64,000 nucleotides of DNA from Methanosphaera sp. ISO3-F5. Its GTDB lineage: Archaea > Methanobacteriota > Methanobacteria > Methanobacteriales > Methanobacteriaceae. Location of the stretch: the NCBI RefSeq assembly GCF_034480035.2, contig NZ_CP118753.2, positions 1,645,426 through 1,709,425 on the forward strand. Direction: 5' to 3'. Positions 21,060 through 49,299 of this stretch are shown here, piece after piece. The notes beneath the pieces were generated by a model. It saw only the letters and a list, made by a program, of their open reading frames with translations. It was not told where the DNA came from and searched no databases. Position numbers and translations under genes: made by a program. Within the stretch, counting starts at the first letter, position 1; the number at the start of each line of letters is the position of its first letter.

Positions 21060-21395
21060 TTAGGAGGTGGTCATGTATTGTCTTCCCGTTTTAGGGTCTG
21101 TGTATACTGTTCCTGTTTTTGTGTATCCTGAACTTGAGTCTTCTATGCTTTCAGGCAGGTCTTTGATTTCTTGTCCTTGTTCTACTTCTACGGTTTGTTG
21201 TGCTTGTTGCATGATTGCTTGTTTTTCTTGTGGGCTCATGTCACTGAACATGATGTTTTGTAGTCCTGTAGACATTACTGCAAATATGAGGAATCCTACT
21301 GCTAGTACTAGCATGATATCTGTCATGTTGGTTGCTGATGACATTGGGTCTATATCTTCTTCTGTTTCTCTTAGTCTACTCCGTCTTAGGGACAT
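21060..21395 (-). CDS. DUF2149 protein, ExbD-like single-pass membrane subunit
   Basis: A 111-residue protein with a basic, cytoplasmic-type N-terminus (MSLRRSRLRETEED), one membrane helix (about 25-44: TDIMLVLAVGFLIFAV) and a polar outer segment. Asp26 at the start of the helix occupies the position of the proton-carrying Asp in ExbD/TolR/MotB. I assign the Pfam DUF2149 family from memory of the N-terminal and helix pattern. It overlaps the ExbB-type gene by 20 bases and has a GAGGT ribosome binding site, so the two should be made together as a channel. The third gene of the operon is a DUF2162 membrane protein. Likely role: proton-driven force generation for a surface process, by analogy with TonB-ExbBD. 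Confidence 0.78.
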   Translation of the reverse strand: MSLRRSRLRETEEDIDPMSSATNMTDIMLVLAVGFLIFAVMSTGLQNIMFSDMSPQEKQAIMQQAQQTVEVEQGQEIKDLPESIEDSSSGYTKTGTVYTDPKTGRQYMTTS

Positions 21396-22041
21396 TGTAA
21401 TCTACCTCTAGGATTGTTTCTGCATAATCATATAATATGTTTATGTCTTGGTGGTACCATTTTCTTCTTATTTTTCCTATTACGTAGCATACTGTACCTG
21501 CGGCTAGTCCTGCTGTGGTTGTGTTGAATGCTGTTGTGAGGTTTGCTGTTAGTGTTTGCATGTCTCCTAGTCCTAGTGCTGCTAGTCCTGGTCCCATTGG
21601 GATGATTGTTCCTAGTAGTCCGCATCCTGATCCTACTTTTGCTACTATATCTACTTTTGTTAGTGATCCTAGCATTTTGGATTCTTGTGTTTCTAGCATG
21701 TTTCTTGCTAGTATTTCTCTTGTTTGTTTGTCATAGTATGTTCTGTCTAGTTTTGCTATTGATGTTAGTACTTCTTTGTCGTATTGGTTTAGTTTGGTGG
21801 TGGTTATTATTTGACAGATTTCGTCTGATGTTTTTGATTGTGCTATTTTTTTGATTACTGTTTCTTTTTCTTCTCCCGTGATTTTCTTTCTTCCCGTGTA
21901 TTCTGCTAATATTCCTCCAATTTCTATTACTGCGAATATTATGAATATTACTAGCAGAATCATTACTGGTAATAGTAAGCTTTGTGCTATGACGTTAAGT
22001 ATTCCTGAAAGAATATCTCCTCCGGGTATGGTTGTTGCCAT
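21376..22041 (-). CDS. MotA/TolQ/ExbB-type proton channel subunit
   Basis: A 221-residue membrane protein with the ExbB layout: helix 1 at about 20-43 (LLLPVMILLVIFIIFAVIEI), a long charged cytoplasmic stretch, helix 2 near 135-158 (GCGLLGTIIPMGPGL) and helix 3 near 165-190 (FNTTTAGLAAGTVCYVIGKI). The GLLGTI and TTTAGLAAG segments correspond to the conserved pore helices of TolQ/ExbB, including pore-lining Thr. GGGAGGA precedes the ATG. It sits between DUF2162 and DUF2149 genes and overlaps the latter. It differs clearly from the second ExbB at 48457-49299, so the genome has at least two such motors. Confidence 0.85.
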   Translation of the reverse strand: MATTIPGGDILSGILNVIAQSLLLPVMILLVIFIIFAVIEIGGILAEYTGRKKITGEEKETVIKKIAQSKTSDEICQIITTTKLNQYDKEVLTSIAKLDRTYYDKQTREILARNMLETQESKMLGSLTKVDIVAKVGSGCGLLGTIIPMGPGLAALGLGDMQTLTANLTTAFNTTTAGLAAGTVCYVIGKIRRKWYHQDINILYDYAETILEVDYNVPKTE

Positions 22042-22057
22042 TCTTTTTTTCCTCCCT

Positions 22058-22759
22058 TTAATATTTTAGTAGATAGCTTCTTCTTTTTGCTATTAGTGCT
22101 CCGAATAGTATCATTATTAGTAGTACTACTATCATCATTAGTACTTGGCCTGATGATTGTAGTTCGATTGTTGTTCCATCAACTAGTAATGAAATGTTTG
22201 GTAGTATCATTAGGCATAGGACAAAGTATATTCCTATGAATATCATGAAATTTCCCAGTACTAATGGGTATGGTTTGTTTATTTTTTTTACTATTGTTGA
22301 TGATAGTAGGTATGTTATTCCCATCACTATGACTAGGGCTATTGCTGAGAAAGCTCCTAGTGTGACTGTTGACACCCCTGCTACTGGTGCCACTAGTATT
22401 ACTGATGCTAGTATTGCTCCAAAACAGCATGGGCATGGTGCTACAACTGCCATGCATGTTGCTGATCCCACGTCCTTCTCAGTTACTTGCCAGTCGTAGA
22501 TTGTTTTAAATCCTGTTATAACAATTATTAGTGCTATGATGGCGAATATTGCTCCACTATATCCGTATACTATTTCGTATACTTGTTGGGTGTATGGTTG
22601 ACATATGTAGGATAGTATTAGGAGTCCTATTGCATAACCTACTAGGATTAGTCCGACTGTTTTTCTTTTTATTCCGGAAAATCCTAGTGCCAGTCCTATT
22701 TTCACACCGAATACAAGTACTGCAGCTAGTATGCCGTATTGTAAGAATTGTTCAAGCAT
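22058..22759 (-). CDS. DUF2162 polytopic membrane protein with intramembrane CPCC
   Basis: A 233-residue protein with about six or seven membrane helices and very few charges, started from an ATG with a GGTGAT ribosome binding site. I assign it to the DUF2162 predicted-transporter family. The striking feature is C102 and CPCC at 109-112 (ATCMAVVAPCPCCFGAI) at or inside a helix. CPC motifs line the metal path of heavy-metal P-type ATPases, and paired Cys in helices also carry electrons in CcdA/DsbD proteins, so metal or thiol transfer is plausible. It is the first gene of the leftward operon with the ExbB-type and DUF2149 genes. Substrate is unknown. Confidence 0.75.
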   Translation of the reverse strand: MLEQFLQYGILAAVLVFGVKIGLALGFSGIKRKTVGLILVGYAIGLLILSYICQPYTQQVYEIVYGYSGAIFAIIALIIVITGFKTIYDWQVTEKDVGSATCMAVVAPCPCCFGAILASVILVAPVAGVSTVTLGAFSAIALVIVMGITYLLSSTIVKKINKPYPLVLGNFMIFIGIYFVLCLMILPNISLLVDGTTIELQSSGQVLMMIVVLLIMILFGALIAKRRSYLLKY

Positions 22760-23085
22760 GAAATCACCATTCTTATATATTGTTTGTTAATGATTTGGTT
22801 ATTTTTTTTATAAAAATTCTTGAAACCATATAAAGATATTTTTATTTATCTTTATTAATTAATATTAGTATGCTTTATTCAATCATAATTCTATTATTTT
22901 TTATATAATTTTCATTTTAACCTTATTTTTAGTTTGAATGTTATTTTCATGTTTCTCGTGATTTTATGAAAATGCATACTTATAATAATAAAAAAAGAGA
23001 TATCAATATTCATATTAATAAAGTATACTTAATAACTATCAATTTATTTTGATTAGTTTATTAATTAAACATTATTAAAAATCGA
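22760..23085. other. divergent promoter region, membrane operon / surface protein
   Basis: This 326-base A/T-rich region drives the DUF2162-ExbB-DUF2149 operon leftward (TATA-like CCATATAAA at 22828-22836 read on the minus strand) and the surface protein at 23086 rightward. Shared regulation of the two units is possible. No operator-like palindrome stands out. Confidence 0.5.
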
Positions 23086-25779
23086 ATGGGGGTGAAAATT
23101 TTCTTACATGCTAATAAAAAAGCATTACTAATCATGATAACAATAATACTCATAACAACAATAACCTGTGTATCCGCAGTAGACGAAAACACAACAATAC
23201 ACAAAAACAAGACAATCACAAAAAACATACAACAAACAACAAAAACAGAAAACAATCAAATATACCTAAACCAGGACAACTACCAAGAATACAAAAACTA
23301 TGAATACCCAGAAAACACCCAAATAATAATCAACGACACAATAAACGATGCAGAATTCAACATATACAATAAAAACATTTCGATCACAGGAAATGAAGGA
23401 GCAACACTATCCAACAGTCACATAGAAGTATTTGATGACGGAAATATACGCCTATCAAACATCACATTCACAACAAACGATGAAAGCAAATACACACAAG
23501 TACTAATGATAGAAACAGACAACAACATACTAGAAAACCTAAAATTCAATGAATATAGGTCAACAGCAGACAGAAGAGAATACTACAGGTCAATCAACCT
23601 ATACGGTGACAATAACACAATAATAAACTGTACCTTCGATGTAACACAACCATCAAAACACATAAACTGGGATACATTTTCAGCAGAATGTCCATTCGAA
23701 ACAATAGCAATACACGGAAACAAAAACAACATAAGCAATAACTCATTGTTCATCCAAGAAGGAGAAGAAAAAGATTATCCCTTCGGAACAATATTCGCAA
23801 TATCAGTAAGAGGAGACAATAACACAATAGACTCCAACAACATACTAATGCAAGGAACATTATACCTATACGGAGTAAGAATATACCAATCCAACAACAC
23901 AGTTTCCAACAATAACATAGAAGTAAACTCAATAAGATACGCAAACGGAATAGCAATCGAAAGCCCACAAAGTGGAGTCACAGGAAACAACAAACTAGTC
24001 AACAACACAGTACATGTAACCACACAAAACTCAACAATACCTGGAGAACCATCTTCCCCAGGCCTTGTAGATGCTGCATATGCAATAATGATAACCGAAT
24101 ACAAGTATACTGGTGGAGGACTCTACACCGGAGAAAAATCAAACACTATAGATAACATCATAGAAGGAAACACAATCACTGGTGAATCCTCACAAATGTA
24201 TGCAATAGAACTATTCGGAGGAAAAGGCACAACAATATCATCTAACAACATCCGATCAGTAGGAGTATCAGCTATGGGAATAGCAGGAGGAGGAGCAGGA
24301 ACCAAAATAATTGGTAACAGAATGGAAGTATATGGTCAAACAAACCAAACATTCTACTCAGCCGACTACTATAAACCACAAACAGGTGGAATAAATCTAC
24401 AATATGGAACAGGAACAACAATAACAGGTAACGTAATAATAACAGACAATGGACCAGCAATCAGAAGTCTTGGAGAAGGAGATACACTAATAAGCGACAA
24501 CATCATAGATGTAAACAACAATGAAGTGGCAATAGACATAAATGGTCCAAGAGGATTAACAGCAATTATTGGAAATGCAATAACCAATTTAGCAGACCAA
24601 ATAATCAATGGTGGAGCCTCCTCTGGAAACTTTGATCCAAACCTTATACCAACAGATCCAGAACCATCAAATCCAGAAACTGACGAAACAAACAAAACTG
24701 AAACACCAGAAAATGGCACTGAAACACCTGAAAACAGTACTGTAACACCGGAACAAAATGACACTGAAGTTCCTGAAAACAGTACTGTAACACCGGAACA
24801 AAATGACACTGAAGTTCCTGAAAACAGTACTGTAACACCGGAACAAAATGACACTGAAGTTCCTGAAAACAGTACTGTAACACCGGAACAAAATGACACT
24901 GAAGTTCCTGAAAACAGTACTGTAACACCGGAACAAAATGACACTGAAGTTCCTGAAAACAGTACTGTAACACCGGAACAAAATGACACTGAAGTTCCTG
25001 AAAACAATACTGAAATTCCAGAACCTGAAGAGAATCAGACAGAAGTACTGGTACCTGAAGAGAATCAGACAGTCGTTCCAGAGCCTGAACCACAACAAAA
25101 TCAGACAGAAGTACCTCAACCAGAAATAGAAGAAAATACTACAGAAATTCCAGTAATAGAAGAAGAACAAAAAAATCCTGAAGAACCAAAAGAAAACAAA
25201 ACTCAAGAAGAGAACAAAGAAGAACAAAAGGACCAAGAATCAGAAGAGAACAATACAAGCACTGAAGTTGAAAACAATGAGACCACAGATACAAAAACCA
25301 ACACAACAACAATCCCTGATATTATAATCGAAAATACAACAGTCACACCAACAGAAAACAGTACACAACCAGCACAAGGTGAACTGGTTGAAGACATGGA
25401 AGTAATAAATGGTACTCAACAAGTGGTAAATGATACAACAAGTGCTGGTGAAAAACCAGATGACAGCAAAGATAGTGATGATTCTACAGATCCAGTAGAA
25501 CCACAACAGCCACAGCAACCAGAAAGTCAGGAGTCAGAAAATTCAGAGTCTGAAGACACATCCAATCAGGAAAGTAAACCTAACCAGGAAGAGCAACAAT
25601 CATCTAGTGCAGGTAAGGATAATGCCGTTGCAACAACTGCAACCATAGACAGTTCCAAGGTTTATGAAATTACTCAGAAGTTACCTGATGATTTGATGCC
25701 TGAACATCCTGAAATAATTATTGTATTATTGTTAACATTATGTGCAGCTTTCACATATGGTTATCTTAAAAAGAGATAA
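23086..25779 (+). CDS. membrane-anchored beta-helix surface protein with Pro/Glu/Thr repeat stalk
   Basis: An 897-residue exported protein. The signal peptide spans roughly residues 1-31 (core LLIMITIILITTITCVSA). Residues 50-500 form a parallel beta-helix. Residues 520-850 are a Pro/Glu/Asn/Thr stalk that includes six identical 15-residue repeats (PENSTVTPEQNDTEV). The C-terminus is a membrane helix (EIIIVLLLTLCAAFTYGY) with KKR stop-transfer. Unlike the other beta-helix proteins here it lacks Ig repeats and is anchored in the membrane, as is the CobN-like protein at 31010. Start uncertain: ATG 23086 lacks an upstream site, while GGGGGTGA lies just after it. It diverges from the ExbB-type operon, suggesting a link. 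Confidence 0.82.
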   Translation: MGVKIFLHANKKALLIMITIILITTITCVSAVDENTTIHKNKTITKNIQQTTKTENNQIYLNQDNYQEYKNYEYPENTQIIINDTINDAEFNIYNKNISITGNEGATLSNSHIEVFDDGNIRLSNITFTTNDESKYTQVLMIETDNNILENLKFNEYRSTADRREYYRSINLYGDNNTIINCTFDVTQPSKHINWDTFSAECPFETIAIHGNKNNISNNSLFIQEGEEKDYPFGTIFAISVRGDNNTIDSNNILMQGTLYLYGVRIYQSNNTVSNNNIEVNSIRYANGIAIESPQSGVTGNNKLVNNTVHVTTQNSTIPGEPSSPGLVDAAYAIMITEYKYTGGGLYTGEKSNTIDNIIEGNTITGESSQMYAIELFGGKGTTISSNNIRSVGVSAMGIAGGGAGTKIIGNRMEVYGQTNQTFYSADYYKPQTGGINLQYGTGTTITGNVIITDNGPAIRSLGEGDTLISDNIIDVNNNEVAIDINGPRGLTAIIGNAITNLADQIINGGASSGNFDPNLIPTDPEPSNPETDETNKTETPENGTETPENSTVTPEQNDTEVPENSTVTPEQNDTEVPENSTVTPEQNDTEVPENSTVTPEQNDTEVPENSTVTPEQNDTEVPENSTVTPEQNDTEVPENNTEIPEPEENQTEVLVPEENQTVVPEPEPQQNQTEVPQPEIEENTTEIPVIEEEQKNPEEPKENKTQEENKEEQKDQESEENNTSTEVENNETTDTKTNTTTIPDIIIENTTVTPTENSTQPAQGELVEDMEVINGTQQVVNDTTSAGEKPDDSKDSDDSTDPVEPQQPQQPESQESENSESEDTSNQESKPNQEEQQSSSAGKDNAVATTATIDSSKVYEITQKLPDDLMPEHPEIIIVLLLTLCAAFTYGYLKKR
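24733..25008 (+). repeat. six 45-bp in-frame tandem repeats
   Basis: A 45-bp unit encoding PENSTVTPEQNDTEV is repeated six times without base changes, then decays (AACAGT to AACAAT in the last unit). This expands an extended, sequon-containing (NST, NDT) stalk. The unit length being a multiple of three keeps the frame whenever copy number changes. It also keeps all minus-strand frames open, producing long spurious frames there. Confidence 0.95.
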
Positions 25780-26064
25780 AGCTTTAAAATTATGATTTTA
25801 TATTAATGGGAGGTAAACAATTACTTTTCATTATCAAACCTTTTTTTTACAAAATTTTTTTTTAGTAATTTTTTTTATTTTTGCTGATTATTTTTTTTAT
25901 CAACGTTTCTTCCTAAATTTTTATTTTTTCTTCAATTTTACTTAAATTTTAATTGTATTAATTATAATAGTATGTAAAAATAAATCTAATATCATAAAAT
26001 ATAATTCCCTTTAATGAATATTGTATACTATAATCAGAATTATATTAAAAACAGGTGAAAAGAG

Positions 26065-29000
26065 ATGAAAACCATAAGTAAATTCTTGTTATTTACACTA
26101 GTTTTACTCTTGGTTGGTTTGGGAACAGTTACAGCCGCAAACAACATGTCAGACATGACAAGCAATGTAAAAAATGTTCCTAATGACAGTATTACATCTG
26201 ATGTGATAAAAGACACATCAAATAATGTAATCAAAGATACCACTACAAAAAGTAGTGAGGAAACAATTAGCCATAATAAAACTATTGAAAAAAATAATGA
26301 GCTAAAAAGCAACACAAAAACTGCTCGTACAACAACAGTTACAAGCAGCACATACAACCAATATTTTAACACTAAATCTACAACAAGTTTAATCGCATCA
26401 GGAGACACAATAAATCTAAAAGGAACATTTAACAACGTAGATTTCACACTCGATAAATCAATTACACTAACAAGCTCTGATAAAAGTGCAAAACTATACA
26501 ATTGTACAGTAATTGTTCCAAAAACAGGTAGTGGATCAAAAATAACATACCTAACAATCAACAACAGTGCAGAAGAAACATCAGGTATAATACTCAATGA
26601 TTCAAGTAATCTAATCATAGAAAACAATATTGTAGAAGTAAGCGGACTAAACTCATACGGACTAGCAGCAAACGTAAATAAAAGTACAATAAGATTCAAT
26701 TCATTCGAAACGCATAAACTTGATGCAAACACCGAACGAACACACACAGCAGTAGTGCTAAGCTGCTCCTACTACAATACATTCGCAAACAACACAGTAA
26801 AAAGTGACGGAGCAAACTGCATATACCTAAGCGCATACCAGGCAGTAGGAATTAAAGGAGGACCATCCTACTACAACAACATAACAGGAAACAAGGTACA
26901 AGGAGCAAACACAGGATGGAGTTACACAATACAAATATTCGGAACAAATAACAGAGTAATAGAAAACACAGTCAGTGGAGGATACCGTGGAATATCCACA
27001 GAAAGCGCAGACAACACAATAAACAATAATGACGTAAACGCATACAATGTAGGAATATACGCAGCAGACAACTGTAACGTACAAAACAATAATATCCACG
27101 TAACAGACCTTGCAACAGGTATTACAGTAGGTGGAGAAAACGTTAAAATAATTGGAAACACAATACAAACAGCTGATGGAAGAGCCATTGAAATACAAGC
27201 AAACAATGCCGCAATAACAGATAACACAATAACCTCAACAGAAAATGTGGGAATACACTCAAAAGGAGCATACAGTGGAGTAAACATCATCCATAACACA
27301 ATCACAACCAAAAGAGAAGGAATCCTCTTCGAAAAACAATCAAACACCAAAAAAGTAAACAACATACTAGTAGACAGAAACACAATAACATCAGAAGCAG
27401 AATATGCAATAAACTTCCTCGACGCAGGAGCAAAAACATCAGCAGATGTAAACGTAACAGTTTCAAGCTCAAACGTGCTCACATCAAGCAAAGGAAAAGG
27501 ATTAACCTACGCATACCTTAAACCATCAAACGCAGGACAAGGCACAAACACCGACACCAACCAGGTAATCACAATAACACCAGAAAACTACTCAACATAC
27601 TTCACAGATGAAACAAGCAACTCCAACATAAAACAAAACGCAACAATATACTTATCAGGAACATTTAACAACATTAAATTCTCATTTAACAAAAAAGTAC
27701 ACATCAACGGTAAAAGTGCAACAATAAACAATGGACTAATCACACTAACAGGCGAAGCACACGAATCAACAATAACTGATGTAACAATAAACAACAACAA
27801 TAAGCAAGGAACAGTTCATGCAATAGAATTGTTTGAAGTAAACAATTGTAAAATAACAAACTCCAAAATAACAAACTATGCAACACAGGAAAGTCTGGGA
27901 ATATTCCTATTCGGAGCAAATGGTAACACCATAACATCTAACACAATAACAACCACTGGTGACTACCTGAACAATGCAATACTAGCATACGCTTCAGATT
28001 CTAATACAATCAACAATAACAGGATAACAATCACTCAAAGTAACATACCACGAGGATATGATAACTACGTTATGTTCAACGAAAAAATAGGATCCATACA
28101 AGAAGTACTTCACAACCATGGAATAATACTTCTTTACTCATCAAACAACATCATAGACAAAAACACAGTAACAGGAACATCACAATTCAAATCATACACA
28201 GCACCATCCAAGGACTGTCAAAACAGCATAGTAGGAATAGACATCTACTTCGAATCAAACAAAAACAAAGTAACAGGCAACACAATAAACATTAACAGTT
28301 ACTCACCATTCGTTTATGGAATGGGAGTTCTCGGAGCATCATGGGGAAAATCAATAACATCCTCAAACTCAACAGACAACATATTTGAAAACAATGACGT
28401 AACACTAAAAGGAGGCTACTTTGCAACAGGATTCATAGCAGGAAGAAACAGTGCAAACACACAAATAAAATCAAACACATTCAAAATAGATGTTACAAAA
28501 GACTCCACAAGCAGGGGAGACTACGTCTATGGTATAACACTAGAAAACAGTACAAAATCAACGATTAACTCAAACACAATCACAAGCACAGGATCAGCAT
28601 TATATAATATAGAACTATTCGATTCAGGAAACAACATAATAACCAATAATAAAATCACAGGAACTGGTACACACCCATGTGCAATAGCAGGATACAGAAC
28701 ATCAAACAACAACATAGAAGGAAACATACTAACACTAAGAAAAGTAAACTATGGAGCAACAAGCTCAGCAAAACACTCTGATGCAATACCATACACAGAT
28801 GAAGGCATAACCTTAACCTCAACAAGCACTAACAATATAATAACAAAAAACACAATAAACACTAATGCAACATCAACAATAAAACTTGGAAGCGAAACAT
28901 CAAACAATAAAATCATTGAAAATTCATTACTTGCAAAAGGCACAGCAGGTGACAAAACAGTTAATAATCAGGCATCAAACACAGTATCTAATAACTTCAT

Positions 29001-30747
29001 ACACTTTGTTAACGCAACAGTCAACCCATTAAGTGCAAAAATTGGTGACACAATAACCATAACAGCAAATATCAAATCAACTACAACAGACACTAAAAAT
29101 TTAACCGCAAAATTCCAGTTAGGAACAAACAATATAGGATCATCAAAAATAAGTAATGGTAAAGCAACACTCAAATATCAAATATCAAACCTTTACAGGC
29201 CAACAACATATCAGATTAAGGTAACAGTAAGTGGTAACAACTTCCAGAATGCAACAGCTACAGAAAAAGCAACATTCACTAAAGAACCAGAAAAAGTAAC
29301 GGTTAAAGTTGCAAAAGTACTTAAAACAATAGGATCTAAGGCACAATTAACAGCAAACATAACAACAAGCAATGGTGGAAAAATAAGTGCAGGACAAGCA
29401 ATATTCTACCTGGACAACAAGAAGTTAAGCACTGTGAACGTGACACTAGGAAAAGCAAGCTACACTTATCCTATTAGCAGTAATAGTAAAAGTGGTGTTC
29501 ACACAATAAAAGTACAATACCTTGGAACAAATGACTATAAAACAGCACAAGCAACAAACGTATTGGGAATACAAACTAAGACTAGTATCACACTAGCATC
29601 CCACACAGCAAAGATAGGACAAGCAGTTAACATTAAAGCAACAATAAAAACAGGAACAAGTAAAGTATCAACAGGTAAAGCACTAATTTATATAGGAAAT
29701 AAGAAAATAGCAACAGCAACAATTAAAAACGGAGTTATTAACTATAAATATACAGTTCCAACCACTTATAACAAGACAACCTACAACCTTAAAATAGTCT
29801 ACAATGGAAACAACACTCAGTCACAGGCAACTAAAACATCAAAAATTAAAATGAACGGTATCACACCAGTATTTAATTATTCAACAACAAGCGTAACTGT
29901 AGGAAAAACAGCATCATTAGTGCTTAAAGTAAGCAATGGCAAAACAGGCAAAAACTTGTATAATGCACAAAATGGTAGTGTAACAGTAAAACTTAATGGT
30001 AAAACACTTAAGGATAAGAATGGTAAAGCAATCACTGGTAATGTTAAAAAGGGTAAGTTAACCCTTAAATTCACTGCACCTGAACAGTTAAGTGGAAAAC
30101 AGAATATTACATTCACATATAAAGGAAACAATAAATTTGCAGCTCTTACCAAAACATACAAAAATGGATTAAACATTAAGAAAATAACCACTAAATTAAC
30201 CATTACAAAGATAAAGGCAACAAAGTATGGTAACAAGGTAGTGGTCACTGGAAAAGCTACAGATGCAACTGGTAAAGTACTTAAAAATGTTAATGTTAAA
30301 GTAAAAATTAACAAGAAAACTGTTACGGTAAAAACAAATGCTAAAGGAGTGTACAAGTATACTGCAACAACAAATGCTGTTGGAACAAACACTGTCCTGG
30401 TCACTTATGCTGGTAACAAGAAGTATGCCGCAAAAAGTGTTAAAACAACGTTCAAGGTTTCTAAGCAAAATGTTAAAATATCAATTAAGAAGATTGCTAA
30501 TGCTAAGATTAACAAGACTGCAACAATTAGTGGAACATTGAAGGATGCTAACGGCAAAGTGTTAAAGAATACTAATATTAAAATAAAGATAAACACTAAG
30601 ACAGTTACGGTTAAAACTAACAGTAAAGGAGCATATGCTTATAAGTATAAGGTAACTGTTGCTGGTAAACATAATGTTTCTGTCATGTTTGCAGGTAACA
30701 AGTTGTATACTGCTAAAACATTGAAAACATCCTTTAAAGCAGCTTAG
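26065..30747 (+). CDS. adhesin-like protein, double beta-helix plus six Ig-like repeats
   Basis: A 1560-residue exported protein with an AGGTGA ribosome binding site and signal peptide MKTISKFLLFTLVLLLVGLG. Two parallel beta-helix domains (about 100-480 and 510-960) each begin with a similar unit: YNQYFNTKSTTSL then GDTINLKGTFNNVDFTLDK, and YSTYFTDETSNSN then ATIYLSGTFNNIKFSFNK. This suggests internal duplication. Six Ig-like domains follow, the last two of the ITGKATDATGKVLKNVNVKV type, ending in FKAA. No C-terminal membrane helix. It lies between the two membrane-anchored proteins on the same strand, but T-rich spacers on both sides suggest its own promoter. Confidence 0.85.
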   Translation: MKTISKFLLFTLVLLLVGLGTVTAANNMSDMTSNVKNVPNDSITSDVIKDTSNNVIKDTTTKSSEETISHNKTIEKNNELKSNTKTARTTTVTSSTYNQYFNTKSTTSLIASGDTINLKGTFNNVDFTLDKSITLTSSDKSAKLYNCTVIVPKTGSGSKITYLTINNSAEETSGIILNDSSNLIIENNIVEVSGLNSYGLAANVNKSTIRFNSFETHKLDANTERTHTAVVLSCSYYNTFANNTVKSDGANCIYLSAYQAVGIKGGPSYYNNITGNKVQGANTGWSYTIQIFGTNNRVIENTVSGGYRGISTESADNTINNNDVNAYNVGIYAADNCNVQNNNIHVTDLATGITVGGENVKIIGNTIQTADGRAIEIQANNAAITDNTITSTENVGIHSKGAYSGVNIIHNTITTKREGILFEKQSNTKKVNNILVDRNTITSEAEYAINFLDAGAKTSADVNVTVSSSNVLTSSKGKGLTYAYLKPSNAGQGTNTDTNQVITITPENYSTYFTDETSNSNIKQNATIYLSGTFNNIKFSFNKKVHINGKSATINNGLITLTGEAHESTITDVTINNNNKQGTVHAIELFEVNNCKITNSKITNYATQESLGIFLFGANGNTITSNTITTTGDYLNNAILAYASDSNTINNNRITITQSNIPRGYDNYVMFNEKIGSIQEVLHNHGIILLYSSNNIIDKNTVTGTSQFKSYTAPSKDCQNSIVGIDIYFESNKNKVTGNTININSYSPFVYGMGVLGASWGKSITSSNSTDNIFENNDVTLKGGYFATGFIAGRNSANTQIKSNTFKIDVTKDSTSRGDYVYGITLENSTKSTINSNTITSTGSALYNIELFDSGNNIITNNKITGTGTHPCAIAGYRTSNNNIEGNILTLRKVNYGATSSAKHSDAIPYTDEGITLTSTSTNNIITKNTINTNATSTIKLGSETSNNKIIENSLLAKGTAGDKTVNNQASNTVSNNFIHFVNATVNPLSAKIGDTITITANIKSTTTDTKNLTAKFQLGTNNIGSSKISNGKATLKYQISNLYRPTTYQIKVTVSGNNFQNATATEKATFTKEPEKVTVKVAKVLKTIGSKAQLTANITTSNGGKISAGQAIFYLDNKKLSTVNVTLGKASYTYPISSNSKSGVHTIKVQYLGTNDYKTAQATNVLGIQTKTSITLASHTAKIGQAVNIKATIKTGTSKVSTGKALIYIGNKKIATATIKNGVINYKYTVPTTYNKTTYNLKIVYNGNNTQSQATKTSKIKMNGITPVFNYSTTSVTVGKTASLVLKVSNGKTGKNLYNAQNGSVTVKLNGKTLKDKNGKAITGNVKKGKLTLKFTAPEQLSGKQNITFTYKGNNKFAALTKTYKNGLNIKKITTKLTITKIKATKYGNKVVVTGKATDATGKVLKNVNVKVKINKKTVTVKTNAKGVYKYTATTNAVGTNTVLVTYAGNKKYAAKSVKTTFKVSKQNVKISIKKIANAKINKTATISGTLKDANGKVLKNTNIKIKINTKTVTVKTNSKGAYAYKYKVTVAGKHNVSVMFAGNKLYTAKTLKTSFKAA

Positions 30748-31009
30748 TAATTTGTAGAAAATGGTTATTTTTTAATCATTGTCTTTATTTTCTTTTTTTT
30801 CATAATATTAATTCCATTTTAAATTACTTTTTATTCAAATTATTATTATAAATCTTTTTTTAAAAATCAATCAAATTTTCATTATCTAAATTAAATTAAG
30901 CATAACTATATTATTCTTAAACAACTAAATATTAACCAGTGTATTTGTTCATAAAATATTGAATCAATCACACAAAACATTTAACTAATCAATAAAGGAG
31001 TTTCCTATA

Positions 31010-34000
31010 GTGAATAAAAAAATTATTTCATTATGTATGATACTCTTTATTTTGATAATCTGTACAACTGTAAATGCAAAAGACATAACCAACAGCACGA
31101 ATACAACAATAACCAGTAACAAAATTGATAATTCAAATATAGAACAAATAGAACCAACAATTAAAACGGACACAAACAAAAACACAAACCTTACCAAGAA
31201 CACGTTAAATAAGCAAGAACAGTTGACACAGTCAACAACTAACAAAAAGAACATAATTAAGCAAACCAATAAGAAGCTTAATATTAAAACAGACACAATC
31301 CAAGAAGTCACAAACCTCAACATCACAGGAATAGTGACAACAGCATATGACAAAGAAAACAACACATATGCTGCAGATGAAGAAGAAGGATACACAGTCC
31401 AAGGAGCTAAAATAACATTATATGATAACACTGGAAAAGTACTTAAAACTACTTTATCAGATACAGAAGGAAAATATCAGTTCACAAACCTCACAAACGG
31501 AACATACACCGTAGAATTCAAATACGGCACATATGAAGTAACAAAGGAACAGATAAACCTAAGAACAAGATCACTAAAAGCTAACCATATCTTCGTCCCA
31601 GACATACTAATCATAGCATTCTCTGGAGACAACAACGGAAATGGACAAGCAGAAAAAATAAAATACCTAAAACAAATGAGTGACAGAGTTCTCTTCCTGG
31701 AAAGTTATGAATTAAACAATTCATACGACAAATCCGGACAATGGATGATAAACTTTGCAAACTTCATACTAGTAGACATGTACTCCATAGGAAACGGTTT
31801 CGGAATAGATGTAGACCTGGTAGCTGATTCACCAGCATCACATAACAACAAAATAGCATACTGTTTTGGACTATTTGATGACTCCATACTACAAGGTACA
31901 TTAGGACGATGGGGATGGCTAGGAACAAACCCACACTCCGTACAAAACACTTATGTAGGTTCATACTGGCAGGCACTGTCCGAGACAAACTCCACGACAA
32001 TAAAAACCAATATGAAAAACTTACTAGAATACATAAGATACCTACTGGGAGAAACAAAAGTAGACCCAACACAAAACGGTAGAGGACCATTACTTCTTTC
32101 AAACTCATGGGGTTTATACTATCCTGGATACACAGGCAATGTAAAACTACCAAGCTCAAACCTGATAAAAACATGGATTGAAACAAATCCAGGATACAAT
32201 GCAGACGGAGCAGGTAGTTTAAACTGGATGATAGAAAATTATTCCCAATGGAATATAGAAAACAATAATCCAGCAAAAATATTAAGAAACTTTGAAGATT
32301 GGTACACAGCTAATAAAAAATTAAAAAGTTCTTTTATCATAATATCTACCTACTATGAAGGTGGAGCAGTAGTTGATGCATTAATAAAAGAATATGAAAA
32401 ACAAGGCAGAGCAGTATTCAGTCTCTACAAAACCACATCCGAAGATCCTGATATGACAGCATTACTTGAAATTGCTGGAAACAAATCAGTTCTAAAACGG
32501 GGTGTTTCAGCAGTAAGTTACATGTACTGGTGGACAACAGGTTATGCTCAGAGAGGTGGAAACTACACTATAAATGCTTATAAAAACTTGAACGTATCAT
32601 TAATCGATGCATTAAAAGATATAAGTAAATTCAGTTACGAAAGTGAATACGGTCCACAAAATGAATGGACAGCCGCAGTAACAATGCCTGAACTTGAAGG
32701 AGTTTTCGGTGCAATACCAGTATCCTATGTTAATGACAACAAGGAAACAGTAATAATTCCTGAAGGAGTTGCAAAACATGTGCAGATAACCAATGGATGG
32801 GCAAAACTTAGGGATTTAAACAATTCAGATAAGAAAATATCCATCCTCGTGTATGGTTATCCTCCTGGAAAGGCAAACATCGGGGCATCATACCTCGACG
32901 TGTTCCAGAGTATACATGATTTACTTGGAAAGTTATATGACGAAGGATACAACATAGGCATGAACAAAAGTGAAATTCCAACAACAGATGAGATAAATGC
33001 CATAATATCCGATTTTGGTAACAAGGGATTATGGGCAGAAGGATTACTTGATGAATATGTAATCAAAAACTATGATGAACTAACCAATAACGGACAACTA
33101 GTGGCAAAGGCAACATATAACAAGTGGTACAAAGCACTTCCAAAACAATTACAACAAGATTTAACAGATTATTGGGGTGCACAATTAGGTAATGGTTCAA
33201 TGATTTACCGCGAAAAAGTAGCAGTAAACATTAAAGACCTGAAAAGCTGGTTAAACAATTTAACCGGAAACTATAAAGACCAATTTGAACATTACTGGGA
33301 TATCAATACAAGAAAGATTGTAATATCCAAGAACTCAAAAACAATGGTCTTAAATAAAACCAATTTCTACTTGTGGCTATATGATTTACCTGCAAACCTC
33401 CAGAAAGTATTTAGTAAACATGGCGGTTCAGGATTATTAAACGAAACACCATACAAGAATCAGGGTTACTTCCTCATTCCCGGAAAACGTTTCGGTAACA
33501 TTTTCCTAAGCGTACAGCCAGTAAGAGGTTGGGAATCACAGATTGATTTCCACAATTCCTACCTGCCACCACCACAACAGTACGTGGCATATTACAAGTA
33601 TCTTAGTCAGATATTTAAAACAAACGCTATAATACACATGGGAACTCACGGAACATTAGAATGGTTACCTGGAAGAAATCTTGGATTACAATCATCAGAT
33701 TGGCCGTTCCAATTAATTGATACTCCAATCATATACCCATATATTGTATCAAACCCTGGAGAAGGAATGGTAGCTAAGGAAAGAAGTTTTGCACAAGTTA
33801 TAACACACATAACACCAATAACTTCAGTTTCCTCATTATATGGAGATTATGCGGAACTTAAGGATGCAATATCCAAGTATGATTCAAACAAGAATACAGG
33901 TGTAACAGAAAACCTTGAATACTACAAGGAGTATATTCTAAACATAACACAAAGCTTAGGATATGATGAACCAGACTATGTGACTGTCCAAAAATATGTT

Positions 34001-36718
34001 GATGATTACCTCATAGCAGTAAACAATAACAATAATAAAAGTATTAACAAAGCTAGATCAGCATTAATACAAAAAGCTACTATACTAAATTTCAACAAAC
34101 CAGCAGCAGGTAAATTTGATGCATGGCTAAAAAAACTACAAAAATATCTTAGCAGTGAAGAAGCCTTCGAAGAATGGCTGGCAATAATCCATGCAAACCT
34201 CGAAGCACTCGAAACTGATAAAATCAATTCAGGTATGCATACACTTGGAAGAATCTGGAACGATTCAGAGATGATAACAGGAGTATCCTCCATCGTATCA
34301 TCAAGAACAGATGTGCTTAATAATATAATGAACATAATATATCCAGAAATAACACAAAGTTATTATGATAAGATTAAGCAGAGATCCTTCAATTCACAAA
34401 AAGAAATTATCCAGGGAGTACTAACTTCAATGGTAACAAACATTGTGGAAGGAGAAAGTGTTAAAAGTGTAGCAGAAAGCTATGGTGTATTCAATGAATC
34501 AGCACCATTATATGAGGACCTGCTATTTATTGAGGAAACAATAAATGATATTCTCAATAACCATGAATGGGAATCCATCCTATCAGCCCTAAGTGGAGGA
34601 TACGTGGAACCAGCATTATCTGCAGACCCATTATACTCGGATGTTCTTCCAACAGGTGGAGCAATGTACACTAGTGATTCAACAAAAATACCTAGTAAAA
34701 GTGCATGGCAATCAGCAAAAAATTCAGTCGACCAAGTATTAATAAAATACATGGTAGACCTTGGTGAAGAATCATATCCTGAACTAGTCGGAGAAGTAAT
34801 CTGGGGTACTGAAATTCTACGTACAGAAGGAATAAGTATAGCACAATTCCTATACCTACTCGGAGTACAGCCAACCTGGGATAAGACAGGTACGGTAACA
34901 GGAATAGAAGTAATACCACTAGAAAACTTAACACTAACAATCGATGGAACAGTATATAACAGGCCAAGAATTGACGTATTTGCAACAATGGTATGTAATA
35001 ATCCTGACTGGATATCATTACTCACTGACTCAGTAAGCCTAGTTAATTCACTAAAGGAATCAGTTAAAGATAATTATGTTAAAAAACATTACAAGGAATC
35101 AGGTTCATTAGAAAGATTATTTGGTTTGCCTGGAGCAATACTTGAAGGAACTGGAGTAGCAGACCTGTTAAATAATGCAGGTACAAAGCTCAGCGAGGCA
35201 GATGGTATATCAACAGAACTGGCAAGCGTATACGAATCAAGGATAGGTCACTCATGGAATGTGGATGACAGTGGTAACATAGTAGTGAAAGATGATGGAA
35301 AATCATTCTCATACCTGCTTGAACACATGGACCTAATAATCCAGGACCTTGACAGTACATGGAGATACCTTGACTCAGACGATTATCTTGACTGGTTTGG
35401 TGGACTTTTAAATGCAGCAAACGTACATGGAAACATAGTTAACACTGTTCTATTAGATATTCGTGATAAAAATAATGTAGTTACAAGCACATTAGGTGAA
35501 GAAGTAAAAAAAGAGACAAGAACAACAATACTAAACCCTCAATGGTTAAATGATATTACAACTGAAGTTGGTGGATGGAACCAAATGTCAATGAACTTTG
35601 AAAACTTGATGAAAACCATGCTAACAACACAGGAGTACAAAGAAAACCAGGCAGGAAAAGCAGTTCTTGACACAAGCACAGGAAACAATGCAGGTATTAT
35701 TGGAGACGGTTTACTAGGAGAACTAGCAGAATTAGTCACATACAGTGATTACTTCACAATAGACGCTCAATATAAATCATACTCATTCCAATCAATGGCT
35801 GGATGGCTACTTACAAGTGACATGGCAGGCTTCTGGAAAACAGAAAATGTAGCACTTAGAAAAGACATGCTGCAGAAGTATGTTGACAATGCAAACCGTT
35901 ACGGAGTAGCATGTTGTCACCACACATGTGGAAACATTAACTTCCACGAATGGATCATAAAAACAGGTTCATCACTGGGAGTTAAAGGATTATCAGAGTA
36001 CTCAGAAATATATGCATCAGCAACCAAAAATCCCGATGCAATATATGCAGACCCTTCAAACCCGGATGCAACAATCAGTACTGATGGTTCAGCAAATGGT
36101 GTTGTAGATGTAAGTGAAGGTATAAGTGAATACTTGAATGATGGGGCAACCAGTGAAGCAAATGCAATGGCAATGGCCGCAGCAGGAGCAACTGGTCTAT
36201 CAGACACATCAAACAATAACGGTAATTCAATGACAATGGCAAAAGTAAACAATGGTGGAAAAGGTTCCGGTAACTCTGGAAACAGTCAAGGTTCTAGTGA
36301 TGTTGGAACAAACACAGGAACAGGTAACGGTACAGATAATGCAGCAGAAGGTGGAGGATCAGGTAATGGTGAAGGTTCAGGTAATGGACAGCCAGTACAG
36401 GATGCAACTACTGATGCAAACTCACAGGTAAGCCAGAACGGTACTGACACATCATCTGATGCAGGTGATAACAGTCAATCAGAATCACAAACTGCTACTG
36501 AAGTAACAGTTAATGATGTAAGTAGTAATCAAGGTTCAAGTGCTGGTGGAGAATCAGGTGATAGTGCCGGTGCAGCCTCAGTATATGAACTTGTTAAGAA
36601 GAGTGTTGGAAAACCACCATCACCTCAATCTGAGATAGCCTTTGGTTACTTGATGTTCATTGTTGTAATACTTGTAATATTCTTTGTCGGATTTACAAAG
36701 CCTAATATAAAACGATAA
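31010..36718 (+). CDS. exported, membrane-anchored CobN-like chelatase subunit
   Basis: A 1902-residue protein from GTG 31010 (AAAGGAG nine bases upstream). Signal peptide about 1-24; Asn/Thr linker; a beta-sandwich domain about 100-185 (GAKITLYDNTGKVLKTTLSDTEG, carboxypeptidase-regulatory-like); then a full CobN/BchH-type region to about 1690. CobN hallmarks: VYGYPPGKANIGAS (614-627), HMGTHGTLEWLPG (876-888), SNPGEGMVAKERS, DVLPTGGAMYTSD, and GVIWGTEILRT-like VIWGTEILRTEG with NRPRIDVFA. A Cys/His cluster CCHHTCGN lies at 1635-1642. A Gly/Ser/Asn spacer and a C-terminal membrane helix (FGYLMFIVVILVIFFVGF) fix it outside the cell. CobN normally inserts cobalt in the cytosol using ATP with CobST; no such partners are visible here, so surface tetrapyrrole or metal handling is more likely. 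Confidence 0.88.
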   Translation: MNKKIISLCMILFILIICTTVNAKDITNSTNTTITSNKIDNSNIEQIEPTIKTDTNKNTNLTKNTLNKQEQLTQSTTNKKNIIKQTNKKLNIKTDTIQEVTNLNITGIVTTAYDKENNTYAADEEEGYTVQGAKITLYDNTGKVLKTTLSDTEGKYQFTNLTNGTYTVEFKYGTYEVTKEQINLRTRSLKANHIFVPDILIIAFSGDNNGNGQAEKIKYLKQMSDRVLFLESYELNNSYDKSGQWMINFANFILVDMYSIGNGFGIDVDLVADSPASHNNKIAYCFGLFDDSILQGTLGRWGWLGTNPHSVQNTYVGSYWQALSETNSTTIKTNMKNLLEYIRYLLGETKVDPTQNGRGPLLLSNSWGLYYPGYTGNVKLPSSNLIKTWIETNPGYNADGAGSLNWMIENYSQWNIENNNPAKILRNFEDWYTANKKLKSSFIIISTYYEGGAVVDALIKEYEKQGRAVFSLYKTTSEDPDMTALLEIAGNKSVLKRGVSAVSYMYWWTTGYAQRGGNYTINAYKNLNVSLIDALKDISKFSYESEYGPQNEWTAAVTMPELEGVFGAIPVSYVNDNKETVIIPEGVAKHVQITNGWAKLRDLNNSDKKISILVYGYPPGKANIGASYLDVFQSIHDLLGKLYDEGYNIGMNKSEIPTTDEINAIISDFGNKGLWAEGLLDEYVIKNYDELTNNGQLVAKATYNKWYKALPKQLQQDLTDYWGAQLGNGSMIYREKVAVNIKDLKSWLNNLTGNYKDQFEHYWDINTRKIVISKNSKTMVLNKTNFYLWLYDLPANLQKVFSKHGGSGLLNETPYKNQGYFLIPGKRFGNIFLSVQPVRGWESQIDFHNSYLPPPQQYVAYYKYLSQIFKTNAIIHMGTHGTLEWLPGRNLGLQSSDWPFQLIDTPIIYPYIVSNPGEGMVAKERSFAQVITHITPITSVSSLYGDYAELKDAISKYDSNKNTGVTENLEYYKEYILNITQSLGYDEPDYVTVQKYVDDYLIAVNNNNNKSINKARSALIQKATILNFNKPAAGKFDAWLKKLQKYLSSEEAFEEWLAIIHANLEALETDKINSGMHTLGRIWNDSEMITGVSSIVSSRTDVLNNIMNIIYPEITQSYYDKIKQRSFNSQKEIIQGVLTSMVTNIVEGESVKSVAESYGVFNESAPLYEDLLFIEETINDILNNHEWESILSALSGGYVEPALSADPLYSDVLPTGGAMYTSDSTKIPSKSAWQSAKNSVDQVLIKYMVDLGEESYPELVGEVIWGTEILRTEGISIAQFLYLLGVQPTWDKTGTVTGIEVIPLENLTLTIDGTVYNRPRIDVFATMVCNNPDWISLLTDSVSLVNSLKESVKDNYVKKHYKESGSLERLFGLPGAILEGTGVADLLNNAGTKLSEADGISTELASVYESRIGHSWNVDDSGNIVVKDDGKSFSYLLEHMDLIIQDLDSTWRYLDSDDYLDWFGGLLNAANVHGNIVNTVLLDIRDKNNVVTSTLGEEVKKETRTTILNPQWLNDITTEVGGWNQMSMNFENLMKTMLTTQEYKENQAGKAVLDTSTGNNAGIIGDGLLGELAELVTYSDYFTIDAQYKSYSFQSMAGWLLTSDMAGFWKTENVALRKDMLQKYVDNANRYGVACCHHTCGNINFHEWIIKTGSSLGVKGLSEYSEIYASATKNPDAIYADPSNPDATISTDGSANGVVDVSEGISEYLNDGATSEANAMAMAAAGATGLSDTSNNNGNSMTMAKVNNGGKGSGNSGNSQGSSDVGTNTGTGNGTDNAAEGGGSGNGEGSGNGQPVQDATTDANSQVSQNGTDTSSDAGDNSQSESQTATEVTVNDVSSNQGSSAGGESGDSAGAASVYELVKKSVGKPPSPQSEIAFGYLMFIVVILVIFFVGFTKPNIKR

Positions 36719-48030: not shown

Positions 48031-48438
48031 TTATACTACTGGTGCTTTTACGGCTACATCTAGTAGGTCTGGTGGTGCCGTTATGGTTATTGTTCCTGTG
48101 GATGAGTCCATTGTTATTTGTCCTTCGTCCATTACTCTTGTGTGTACTGCTATCGAGCCTTGCCTTATCATGGATGATTTGTCCACTCCGTTTACTGTTA
48201 CTTTTCTTAGTCCGTTTAATGGTAGTAAGTAGTATTCGGAGTCTCCTGTTGAGCTTGTTGGCTTGGCTGATATTTGTTCTGGCGAGTATTCGTCTAGTTG
48301 TGTTTCGCCTGGGTGTTGGCTTAGCAGCACTAGTAGAAATATCATTATTGTGAAGATTACATCTAGTAGTGGTACTAGGTTTATGTTCGGTGTTTGGTGT
48401 TCTATTTTATCTTTAAATTTTTGTGTATCTATTGACAT
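48031..48438 (-). CDS. exbD: ExbD/TolR-type biopolymer transport protein
   Basis: A 135-residue single-pass protein with a cytoplasmic N-terminus, helix 1 at about 20-40 (NLVPLLDVIFTIMIFLLVL) and an outer domain. Asp26 in the helix is the expected proton-carrying residue of ExbD/TolR. The outer domain (about 75-130) has the short beta/alpha pattern seen in ExbD. It is 18 bases downstream of the ExbB-type gene, so together they form a proton channel. No TonB-like partner is visible nearby. This pair is separate from the ExbB/DUF2149 set at 21-22.8 kb. Confidence 0.88.
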   Translation of the reverse strand: MSIDTQKFKDKIEHQTPNINLVPLLDVIFTIMIFLLVLLSQHPGETQLDEYSPEQISAKPTSSTGDSEYYLLPLNGLRKVTVNGVDKSSMIRQGSIAVHTRVMDEGQITMDSSTGTITITAPPDLLDVAVKAPVV

Positions 48439-48456
48439 TTTTTTCCAACACCTTGT

Positions 48457-49299
48457 TTATTGTTTTAGTTTACTTTCTACTATACGGTTTTGTGTGTCTG
48501 ATTTTTCTCGTATAATGGTTTTTATTCCTTTTTCTAGCATGTTTGGTTTCAGGTATATTTTTAGGTTTGCTTGTTCGTCTTCTATTTGTTTTACTTGTAT
48601 GATTCCTGGTGATTCTTGGAGTGCTTCTATGACTTCGTCTATGTCTTTTTCTAGCCATATTTTCATTTCAGCGTTTCTCCAGTTGCTCATTTTCTTTGCT
48701 ATTTCTATGTTGTCTAGTTGTATTTCTATTTTGCTTTTTATGTATGTGTGTAGTGGGAGTAGTATGATTGCTACTGCTAATCCGAATATGGTTGTTACTA
48801 TTGCTATGTATATTCCGTTTGCCATTAGTGTGATGTCGCTTCCTGCTCCGAGGTCTCTGAATGTGTACCACATTCCCAGTACTGTTCCGATTAGTCCTAT
48901 TAGTGGTGCTACTTCTATTATGGTTTGTAGGGTTGATAGGCCTTTCATCATTTTACTCATTTCTACAATGAATACTTGTTCCATGTTGTCTTCTACTTCG
49001 GATTTGCTTCGGTATCCTATTTTCAGTGCTTCTGATATTATTCGTGATATTGGTGTTTTGTAGTTTCCTATTGCTCTTAGTGCTTCTAGTGATCCTCCAT
49101 GTGCCATTGATTCGTTTACTATTATCATTAGTTCTGTGAGGTCTATTTGTGATGCTTTTCTGAGGTATAGTATTTTTTCTATTGATAGGAATATTCCGTA
49201 AATTCCGATTATTGTGAGGATGTATACTATTGCTCCTCCACTTTGGAACATTGTTATTATGTCATTTCCTGTAGATAGTATTATTCCTATAATGTCCAT
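48457..49299 (-). CDS. exbB: MotA/TolQ/ExbB proton channel protein
   Basis: A 280-residue protein: helix 1 about 20-43 (SGGAIVYILTIIGIYGIFLS), a cytoplasmic region, helix 2 about 130-152 (APLIGLIGTVLGMWYTF) and helix 3 about 165-185 (GIYIAIVTTIFGLAVAIILL). The LIGLIGTVLGM and TTIFGL segments are the conserved ExbB/TolQ pore. A charged C-terminal extension of about 80 residues goes beyond usual ExbB. First of the three-gene leftward group exbB-exbD-purO. Confidence 0.92.
   Translation of the reverse strand: MDIIGIILSTGNDIITMFQSGGAIVYILTIIGIYGIFLSIEKILYLRKASQIDLTELMIIVNESMAHGGSLEALRAIGNYKTPISRIISEALKIGYRSKSEVEDNMEQVFIVEMSKMMKGLSTLQTIIEVAPLIGLIGTVLGMWYTFRDLGAGSDITLMANGIYIAIVTTIFGLAVAIILLPLHTYIKSKIEIQLDNIEIAKKMSNWRNAEMKIWLEKDIDEVIEALQESPGIIQVKQIEDEQANLKIYLKPNMLEKGIKTIIREKSDTQNRIVESKLKQ

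Follow-up and report, generated by a model that had tools for sequence, protein, structure and literature searches.

What does a protein of a cytosolic chelatase family do on the outside of an archaeal cell? The question is raised by a stretch of 64,000 nucleotides from Methanosphaera sp. ISO3-F5 (contig NZ_CP118753.2, positions 1,645,426 to 1,709,425; hereafter the window). It encodes an exported CobN homologue, and an operon for a membrane protein with a domain of unknown function (DUF), DUF2162, an ExbB-type protein and an ExbD-like protein, DUF2149. A preliminary description of this DNA named these genes, all of which are present, and proposed that tetrapyrroles are captured outside the membrane, with extraction or import of metal or cofactor using the proton gradient. 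Our own answer is offered tentatively, as possible rather than probable: the four genes may encode an extracytoplasmic class I chelatase machine that wins a scarce transition metal from chelates outside the cell and is worked by a proton-driven stator.

The CobN protein and its linkage to a stator operon

The CobN gene (Table 1) is the sole member of its family in the 2.68 Mb genome. It has a GTG start with an AAAGGAG site upstream, and its product runs from a signal peptide through an N/T-rich spacer, an immunoglobulin-like (Ig) domain, the CobN body and a G/S/N-rich linker to a C-terminal transmembrane (TM) helix. The Ig match is of the SdrD_B/CarboxypepD_reg type and covers aa 114-185. The protein is thus predicted to be exported and held in the membrane by its C-terminal helix. 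Its scores with the NCBIfam equivalogs are under the cut-off, the best being BchH at 364 bits (cut-off 829), with CobN at 354 bits (cut-off 1619).

The linkage of this protein to the operon is a property of the phylum. Among 152 genomes of Methanobacteriota, DUF2162 is present in 130, DUF2149 in 136 and CobN in 119. At least 49 of the 151 DUF2162 genes listed lie less than 15 kb from a CobN gene against 2.75 expected, a linkage about 18 times above chance over the phylum, and at least 43 of these 49 are within 6 kb. The co-occurrence that the preliminary description proposed to look for is therefore found across Methanobacteriota for CobN, DUF2162 and DUF2149, and extends to CobN, ExbB and DUF2149 in Bacteroidota. 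Contiguous CobN-DUF2162-ExbB-DUF2149 genes on one strand occur in Methanobrevibacter- and Methanothermobacter-type genomes, in many genera. Nine Methanosphaera-type genomes have motor and CobN on a single contig, the gene starts being separated by 4.5-31 kb, and those read in detail have surface-protein genes in between. The window has a divergent version of this layout, with two surface proteins in the interval. A search for shared palindromes and k-mers upstream of the archaeal motor, CobN and CbiM operons returned Shine-Dalgarno-like words only, and no cobalamin or other known riboswitch was found in the archaeal loci or the window.

By alignment, the ExbB/DUF2149 pair carries the residues of proton-driven stators. 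The Asp at the start of the DUF2149 TM segment is nearly invariant among 24 archaeal and bacterial sequences, and the ExbB signature GT(L/I)IPMGP is found across archaea and bacteria in an alignment that includes HmuU and other bacterial relatives; the formal ExbD Pfam match of DUF2149 is sub-threshold only. Like the Ton (ExbB-ExbD-TonB), Tol and Mot stators, the pair joins an ExbB-type channel protein to a partner with one TM segment and an Asp. It differs from them in having no TonB/TolA/MotB-type force arm and no outer membrane; DUF2149 is a separate short family and the ExbB is of the LIPMGP subfamily.

Table 1. Features of the CobN gene, the stator operon and a neighbouring gene (window positions)
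Feature	Position	Strand	Evidence
Exported, C-terminally anchored CobN-family (class I chelatase) protein, 1902 aa	31010..36718	+	PF02514 CobN-Mg_chel E 6e-175
CobN signal peptide, aa 1-24 (approximate), MNKKIISLCMILFILIICTTVNA	31010..31081	+	hydrophobic segment from aa 1
CobN Ig/prealbumin-like domain, aa ~107-195	31328..31594	+	PF17210 9e-11, PF13620 9e-9
CobN HMGTHG motif, aa 876-881; His880 aligned to HmuS catalytic His538	33635..33652	+	alignment of 31 proteins
CobN DSDDY motif, aa 1455-1459; Asp1458 aligned to HmuS His1209	35372..35386	+	also DSDDY in solved CobN 9fpc
CobN membrane-proximal Cys motif CCHHTC, aa 1635-1640, then GN	35912..35929	+	
CobN C-terminal TM anchor after G/S/N-rich linker, TM at aa 1872	36623..36691	+	
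DUF2162 membrane protein, predicted transporter, 7-8 TM, intramembrane PCPCC	22058..22759	-	PF09930 5e-61
DUF2162 CPCC motif, aa 109-112	22424..22435	-	
ExbB/MotA-type stator protein, family signature GT(L/I)IPMGP	21376..22041	-	PF01618 2e-8, 34.5 bits (cut-off 22.9)
DUF2149, ExbD/HmuV-like single-TM partner, 20-base overlap with ExbB gene	21060..21395	-	PF09919 2e-18
DUF2149 Asp26, TM start (NMTDIMLVLAVG), place of ExbD/TolR protonatable Asp	21318..21320	-	
Divergent surface protein: beta helix, repeats, C-terminal TM; membership uncertain	23086..25779	+	PF13229 2e-6

Several observations on these genes may be recorded here. The divergent surface protein has tandem PENSTVTPEQNDTEV repeats (window 24369-25093), as a result of which long but spurious reading frames run uninterrupted on the other strand. 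A second ExbB, of canonical type (PF01618 5e-28), is paired with an ExbD-like protein (NINLVPLLDV) at 48031-49299 on the minus strand, within the housekeeping run rnhB-exbB-exbD-purO-cofE-cofD-GTP cyclohydrolase III. The operonic CobN is apparently broken in two Methanothermobacter-type genomes whose motor genes are intact, by a split frame in one (L187:11866-16207, G144) and by nine internal stops in the other (G151:C1:985055). One Methanothermobacter-type genome has, ahead of CobN, a surface protein with an FmdE domain and a weak match to a Shr-like haem-interacting domain (E 0.006; L169:15979-18897). When a segment of the window CobN near the Cys motif was used as query, the PDB returned an engineered repeat protein only, and this match was discarded.

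Active-site residues, bacterial relatives and the likely metal

Among the closest described parallels is the HmuS-HmuT-HmuU-HmuV system of the Bacteroidales haem (hmu) loci. Its HmuS (PDB 9d26) likewise belongs to the CobN superfamily, is exported, has a membrane segment at each end and carries the catalytic His motif. The order S-T-U-V was present in 68 of the 80 hmu loci fetched. Bacteroides HmuV is itself a DUF2149 protein (PF09919 3e-34) and HmuU a MotA_ExbB protein; the hmu parallel drawn in the preliminary description was right in structure. The full six-gene operon (Y, R, S, T, U, V) is not present here: there are equivalents of S, U and V only, with no HmuY or HmuR, and the T slot is occupied by DUF2162. 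Identity of HmuT with DUF2162 was considered and rejected, a profile comparison with hhalign giving a probability of 0.8%.

In HmuS, His538 of the motif HxG(T/A)HG is catalytic and essential and is faced by His1209; the family is further marked by Met79 and His254, ligands of a second haem, and by a Met-rich insertion (PMC12583661). The window CobN retains the catalytic His, in HMGTHG. The HmuS motif LSLDHxxEFMGG that contains His1209 is replaced in the window by LDSDDYLDWFGG, with Asp at that position. The site-1 ligands Met79 and His254 are replaced by Tyr and Trp, in a head domain whose alignment is less sure than that of the body. The insert in domain IV has 38 residues with a single Met, compared with 98-140 residues and 17-19 Met in two Bacteroidales HmuS. 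The residue at the His1209 position is His in HmuS and in BchH, but Asp in cytosolic CobN and in the solved fragment 9fpc. All 29 distinct motifs compared from archaeal exported proteins have Asp (LDSDDY in the window), and His was found in four motifs of cytosolic BchH-like proteins; the division is not absolute, since an exported Azospirillum protein carries His. Cytosolic CobN/BchH-like proteins of other Methanobacteriales (L062-L065, L068, L069, L071, L074) carry TDLDHYYEF, a His motif of porphyrin type, and their place in the tree is with BchH. A C-terminal motif (A/S)CCxxxCGN is common to many archaeal exported forms, including operonic CobN, and is ACCDHTCNN in Trichlorobacter lovleyi; HmuS holds a weaker form, SCSGFVCDN, and the motif was found in none of the cytosolic CobN/BchH members compared.

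These comparisons bear directly on haem, one of the substrates put forward in the preliminary description. An archaeal HmuS-like dechelatase supplying haem iron, a role already proposed for a pair of CobN-like proteins ('BtuS') in Methanosarcina barkeri, would account for the parallel between CobN-DUF2162-ExbB-DUF2149 and hmuS-T-U-V, for a PDB match to HmuS that reaches into the C-terminal domain, for the Cys motif in common, and for the rise of M. barkeri BtuS with iron source (PMC10846266). Yet the window CobN lacks Met79, His254 and His1209 as well as the Met-rich insert, and HmuT has no detectable homology to DUF2162. We consider a haem dechelatase improbable. Relatives occur moreover in Methanothermus- and Methanothermobacter-type genomes, from hot habitats that presumably offer little haem.

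The core of ExbB, DUF2149 and CobN is found well beyond the archaea, in Bacteroidota as hmuS(T)UV, in Trichlorobacter, Comamonadaceae, Azospirillum and Runella, and, from published papers, in Pseudomonas. A search of 72,556 plasmids for the LIPMGP subfamily of ExbB gave 10 records, in all of which CobN is adjacent. Plasmid pGLOV01 of T. lovleyi has the order TonB-dependent receptor (TBDR)-DUF2162-ExbB-DUF2149-CobN, followed by a separate ExbB-ExbD-TonB set; two tandem cobalamin riboswitches lie immediately upstream, and bzaF/cobT adjoin. The same four families are thus present as in the window, with CPxC in DUF2162 and ACCxHTCxN in CobN. The differences are a Gram-negative host with outer-membrane receptors, the riboswitches, DUF2149 preceding CobN, and a CobN with neither Ig domain nor wall-spanning linker. 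In a Comamonadaceae plasmid a cobalamin riboswitch directly precedes ExbB-DUF2149-CobN, and in Azospirillum CobN-ExbB-DUF2149 is followed by a cobalamin riboswitch and an ABC transporter/TBDR set. The P. aeruginosa genes PA1922-PA1925 bring together CobN-like, ExbB/D-family and DUF2149 proteins with a TBDR, have no DUF2162, and belong to the zinc-responsive Zur regulon (PMC9431628, PMC8456098). The Runella genes, in the order TBDR-[weak DsbD_2/NicO]-ExbB-DUF2149-CobN, are flanked by the hypBF and hypCDE genes of a nickel hydrogenase, and a protein with weak NicO/DsbD_2 similarity takes the place of DUF2162. This module on the R. slithyformis plasmid (L189) may be a nickel uptake route that is absent from its annotation.

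The cobalamin riboswitches on the Trichlorobacter and Comamonadaceae operons, the adjoining bzaF/cobT genes and the CobN-type Asp motif could also be explained by uptake of a whole corrinoid (or F430-like cofactor), captured by the CobN ectodomain and moved intact, metal kept, by the motor and DUF2162. Intact corrinoid import is the main rival explanation, because a finished corrin is chemically unlikely to give up its metal. Nevertheless DUF2162 has only ~233 aa and a metal-type CPCC, the Runella protein in its slot, which lies within a nickel locus, has weak NicO similarity, a metal is indicated by the Zur control of the Pseudomonas genes, and the Methanosphaera genome has CbiD, the mark of a likely corrin maker; on balance we regard intact import as rather unlikely. 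The genome encodes CbiD and two CbiQ, so the organism probably makes its own corrin ring and would need cobalt to do so.

Nickel might instead be scavenged from nickel tetrapyrroles such as the F430 of dead methanogens. Methanogens need much nickel and release F430, the Runella homologue sits inside a NiFe-hydrogenase maturation locus, and a sister motor operon of the window genome carries the cobalt/nickel component CbiM. Against this, the active-site motif is that of corrin-type CobN, cobalamin rather than nickel controls several of the bacterial relatives, and no archaeal copy with nickel regulation was found. Specific scavenging of this kind is about as doubtful, in our judgement, as the haem reading. 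Among the possible captures, riboswitch, residue and neighbour evidence favours corrinoid, cobalt or nickel, and a cobalt or nickel chelate is preferred to haem as substrate. The metal would most likely be cobalt (or nickel), drawn from chelated forms outside the cell.

A proposed role for the stator

How might a chelatase be driven outside the cytoplasm? Cytosolic class I chelatases need an AAA+ ATPase, and CobNST and ChlHID, which share with the window protein the CobN/ChlH body, the HxGxHG motif and, in CobN, DSDDY, are cytosolic and driven in this way. By contrast the window CobN is exported, and no ATPase of the ChlI/D/CobST type was found in the genome (no TIGR02442 match, where the same search matches 13 of 14 control genomes). 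In another archaeal genome a ChlI/D gene does lie next to a cytosolic CobN. Nor is there a TonB (no PF03544 match in the genome), which makes doubtful the TonB-like surface-uptake motor of the preliminary description, as does the T. lovleyi pair lying beside its own ExbB-ExbD-TonB. Because archaea lacking an outer membrane keep the ExbB/DUF2149 pair, and T. lovleyi has a separate Ton set, the pair is unlikely to be a TonB energizer. Since ATP is absent outside the cell and the pair has stator features, these points together argue that the stator works the chelatase itself.

In the mechanism we propose, mechanical work would be supplied by the ExbB/DUF2149 stator in place of a ChlI/D (CobS/T) ATPase. 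By pulling on the chelatase through its membrane-proximal domain the stator would cause opening, distortion of the bound macrocycle and turnover. The freed metal would then be handed inward by way of the Cys motif near the membrane, reach the CPCC of DUF2162 and enter the cytoplasm. HmuU and HmuV would likewise power HmuS and not an outer-membrane receptor. When HmuTUV are absent, purified HmuS completes no more than 1-2 turnovers (PMC12583661), which could fit a missing motor, though other causes are possible. The assignment of DUF2162 as a probable metal permease follows from its CPCC motif, from loss of CPxC in the copies linked to CbiM, and from the NicO-like protein that takes its slot in Runella. 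PCPCC is present in 17 of 17 archaeal DUF2162 of the CobN type in the alignment, with CPVC in T. lovleyi.

The ExbB-DUF2149 pair is found in three settings: with CobN and CPCC-bearing DUF2162; with an FmdE-domain surface protein, an HPGH protein, CbiM and DUF2162 lacking CPxC (also in this genome, at ~1.071-1.078 Mb); and with adhesin-like surface proteins alone. The second motor operon of this genome (~1,071,100-1,077,600; L181:4109-10612) runs FmdE-domain surface protein, HPGH signal-peptide/TM protein, CbiM (PF01891 1e-37; a Co/Ni S-component), small exported protein, CPxC-less DUF2162, ExbB and DUF2149, and contains neither CbiQ nor CbiO. A large exported protein is the factor common to the three settings, and the motor may therefore serve to move surface proteins, of which CobN would be one.

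A number of points weigh against a dedicated chelatase machine. Motor operon and CobN are divergent in the window and 8.25 kb apart, so they are not co-transcribed in this genome and their link rests on the comparison of genomes. A tree of 44 sequences places the window CobN, with Methanosphaera proteins, a Methanothermobacter-type paralogue and others, in an archaeal clade on the cytosolic-CobN side. The operonic archaeal type forms a separate clade, on the opposite side with the bacterial exported forms and HmuS. A single clade of all exported forms is rejected by the approximately unbiased (AU) test (p-AU 5e-5, with long branches as a caveat). Export and motor linkage were therefore gained or lost repeatedly. 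For DUF2162, examined for similarity to LysE/CcdA/NicO-type transporters, no fold was recognised: a PDB profile search gave no match, and the best Foldseek match of its AlphaFold model (mean pLDDT, the predicted local distance difference test, 76.5) had E 0.82, with none below E 0.8. Cobalt is held so firmly in intact corrins that dechelation of B12 is chemically unlikely, and a B12 riboswitch fits the import of corrinoid and of cobalt equally well. Lastly, ExbB-DUF2149 also directly follows adhesin-like beta-helix/Big-domain surface proteins with no CobN or DUF2162 (L213:9982-15554, L216:3106-8382, L217:4081-9586), and hence the motor is not dedicated to chelatases.

This last point could be carried further, to a motor that works surface or wall proteins generally and whose closeness to CobN in this genome is incidental. 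The pair does directly follow adhesin-like or FmdE-domain proteins without CobN in M. ruminantium-type and other genomes, and two surface proteins do separate the parts in the window. The linkage over the phylum, the existence of contiguous operons and the company of CobN in all 10 plasmid records make such a coincidence very improbable.

A possible proton-driven class of chelatases

With the same reservation as for the locus itself, we suggest that a proton-driven class of class I chelatases may exist, common to archaea and bacteria, in which an ExbB/DUF2149 stator outside the cytoplasm replaces the AAA+ ATPase of CobNST/ChlHID. It would have been retuned for haem iron, cobalt, nickel or zinc, with HmuU/HmuV powering HmuS. 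Archaeal CobN-like proteins have been noted before, their role being guessed to be haem-related (PMC10846266), and the archaeal use of HmuS/CobN/ChlH homologues was called unclear in 2025 because complete hmu operons are lacking (PMC12583661). In the literature covered, which left subscription papers outside, we found no earlier description of DUF2162/DUF2149 with CobN in archaea, nor of the conserved archaeal S-U-V-like operon, its CPCC-DUF2162 partner or the idea of a proton-driven chelatase.

The open remark in the HmuS study thus becomes a concrete and testable machine. Methanobacteriota do have an S-U-V-like core, its T slot being taken by another kind of membrane protein, and this core is also present in several bacterial phyla in cobalamin or nickel contexts, with zinc control known from the literature. 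The role assigned to HmuU/HmuV as a TonB energizer is put in question, and likely roles emerge for two domains of unknown function, DUF2149 as stator partner and DUF2162 as probable metal permease. The analysis suggests that the cell strips cobalt or nickel from compounds outside it using membrane energy in place of ATP. If this is true, proton motive force drives tetrapyrrole (de)metallation, and the surface of gut and rumen methanogens would be a site of competition for metals, fought with machinery akin to that of the Bacteroidota.

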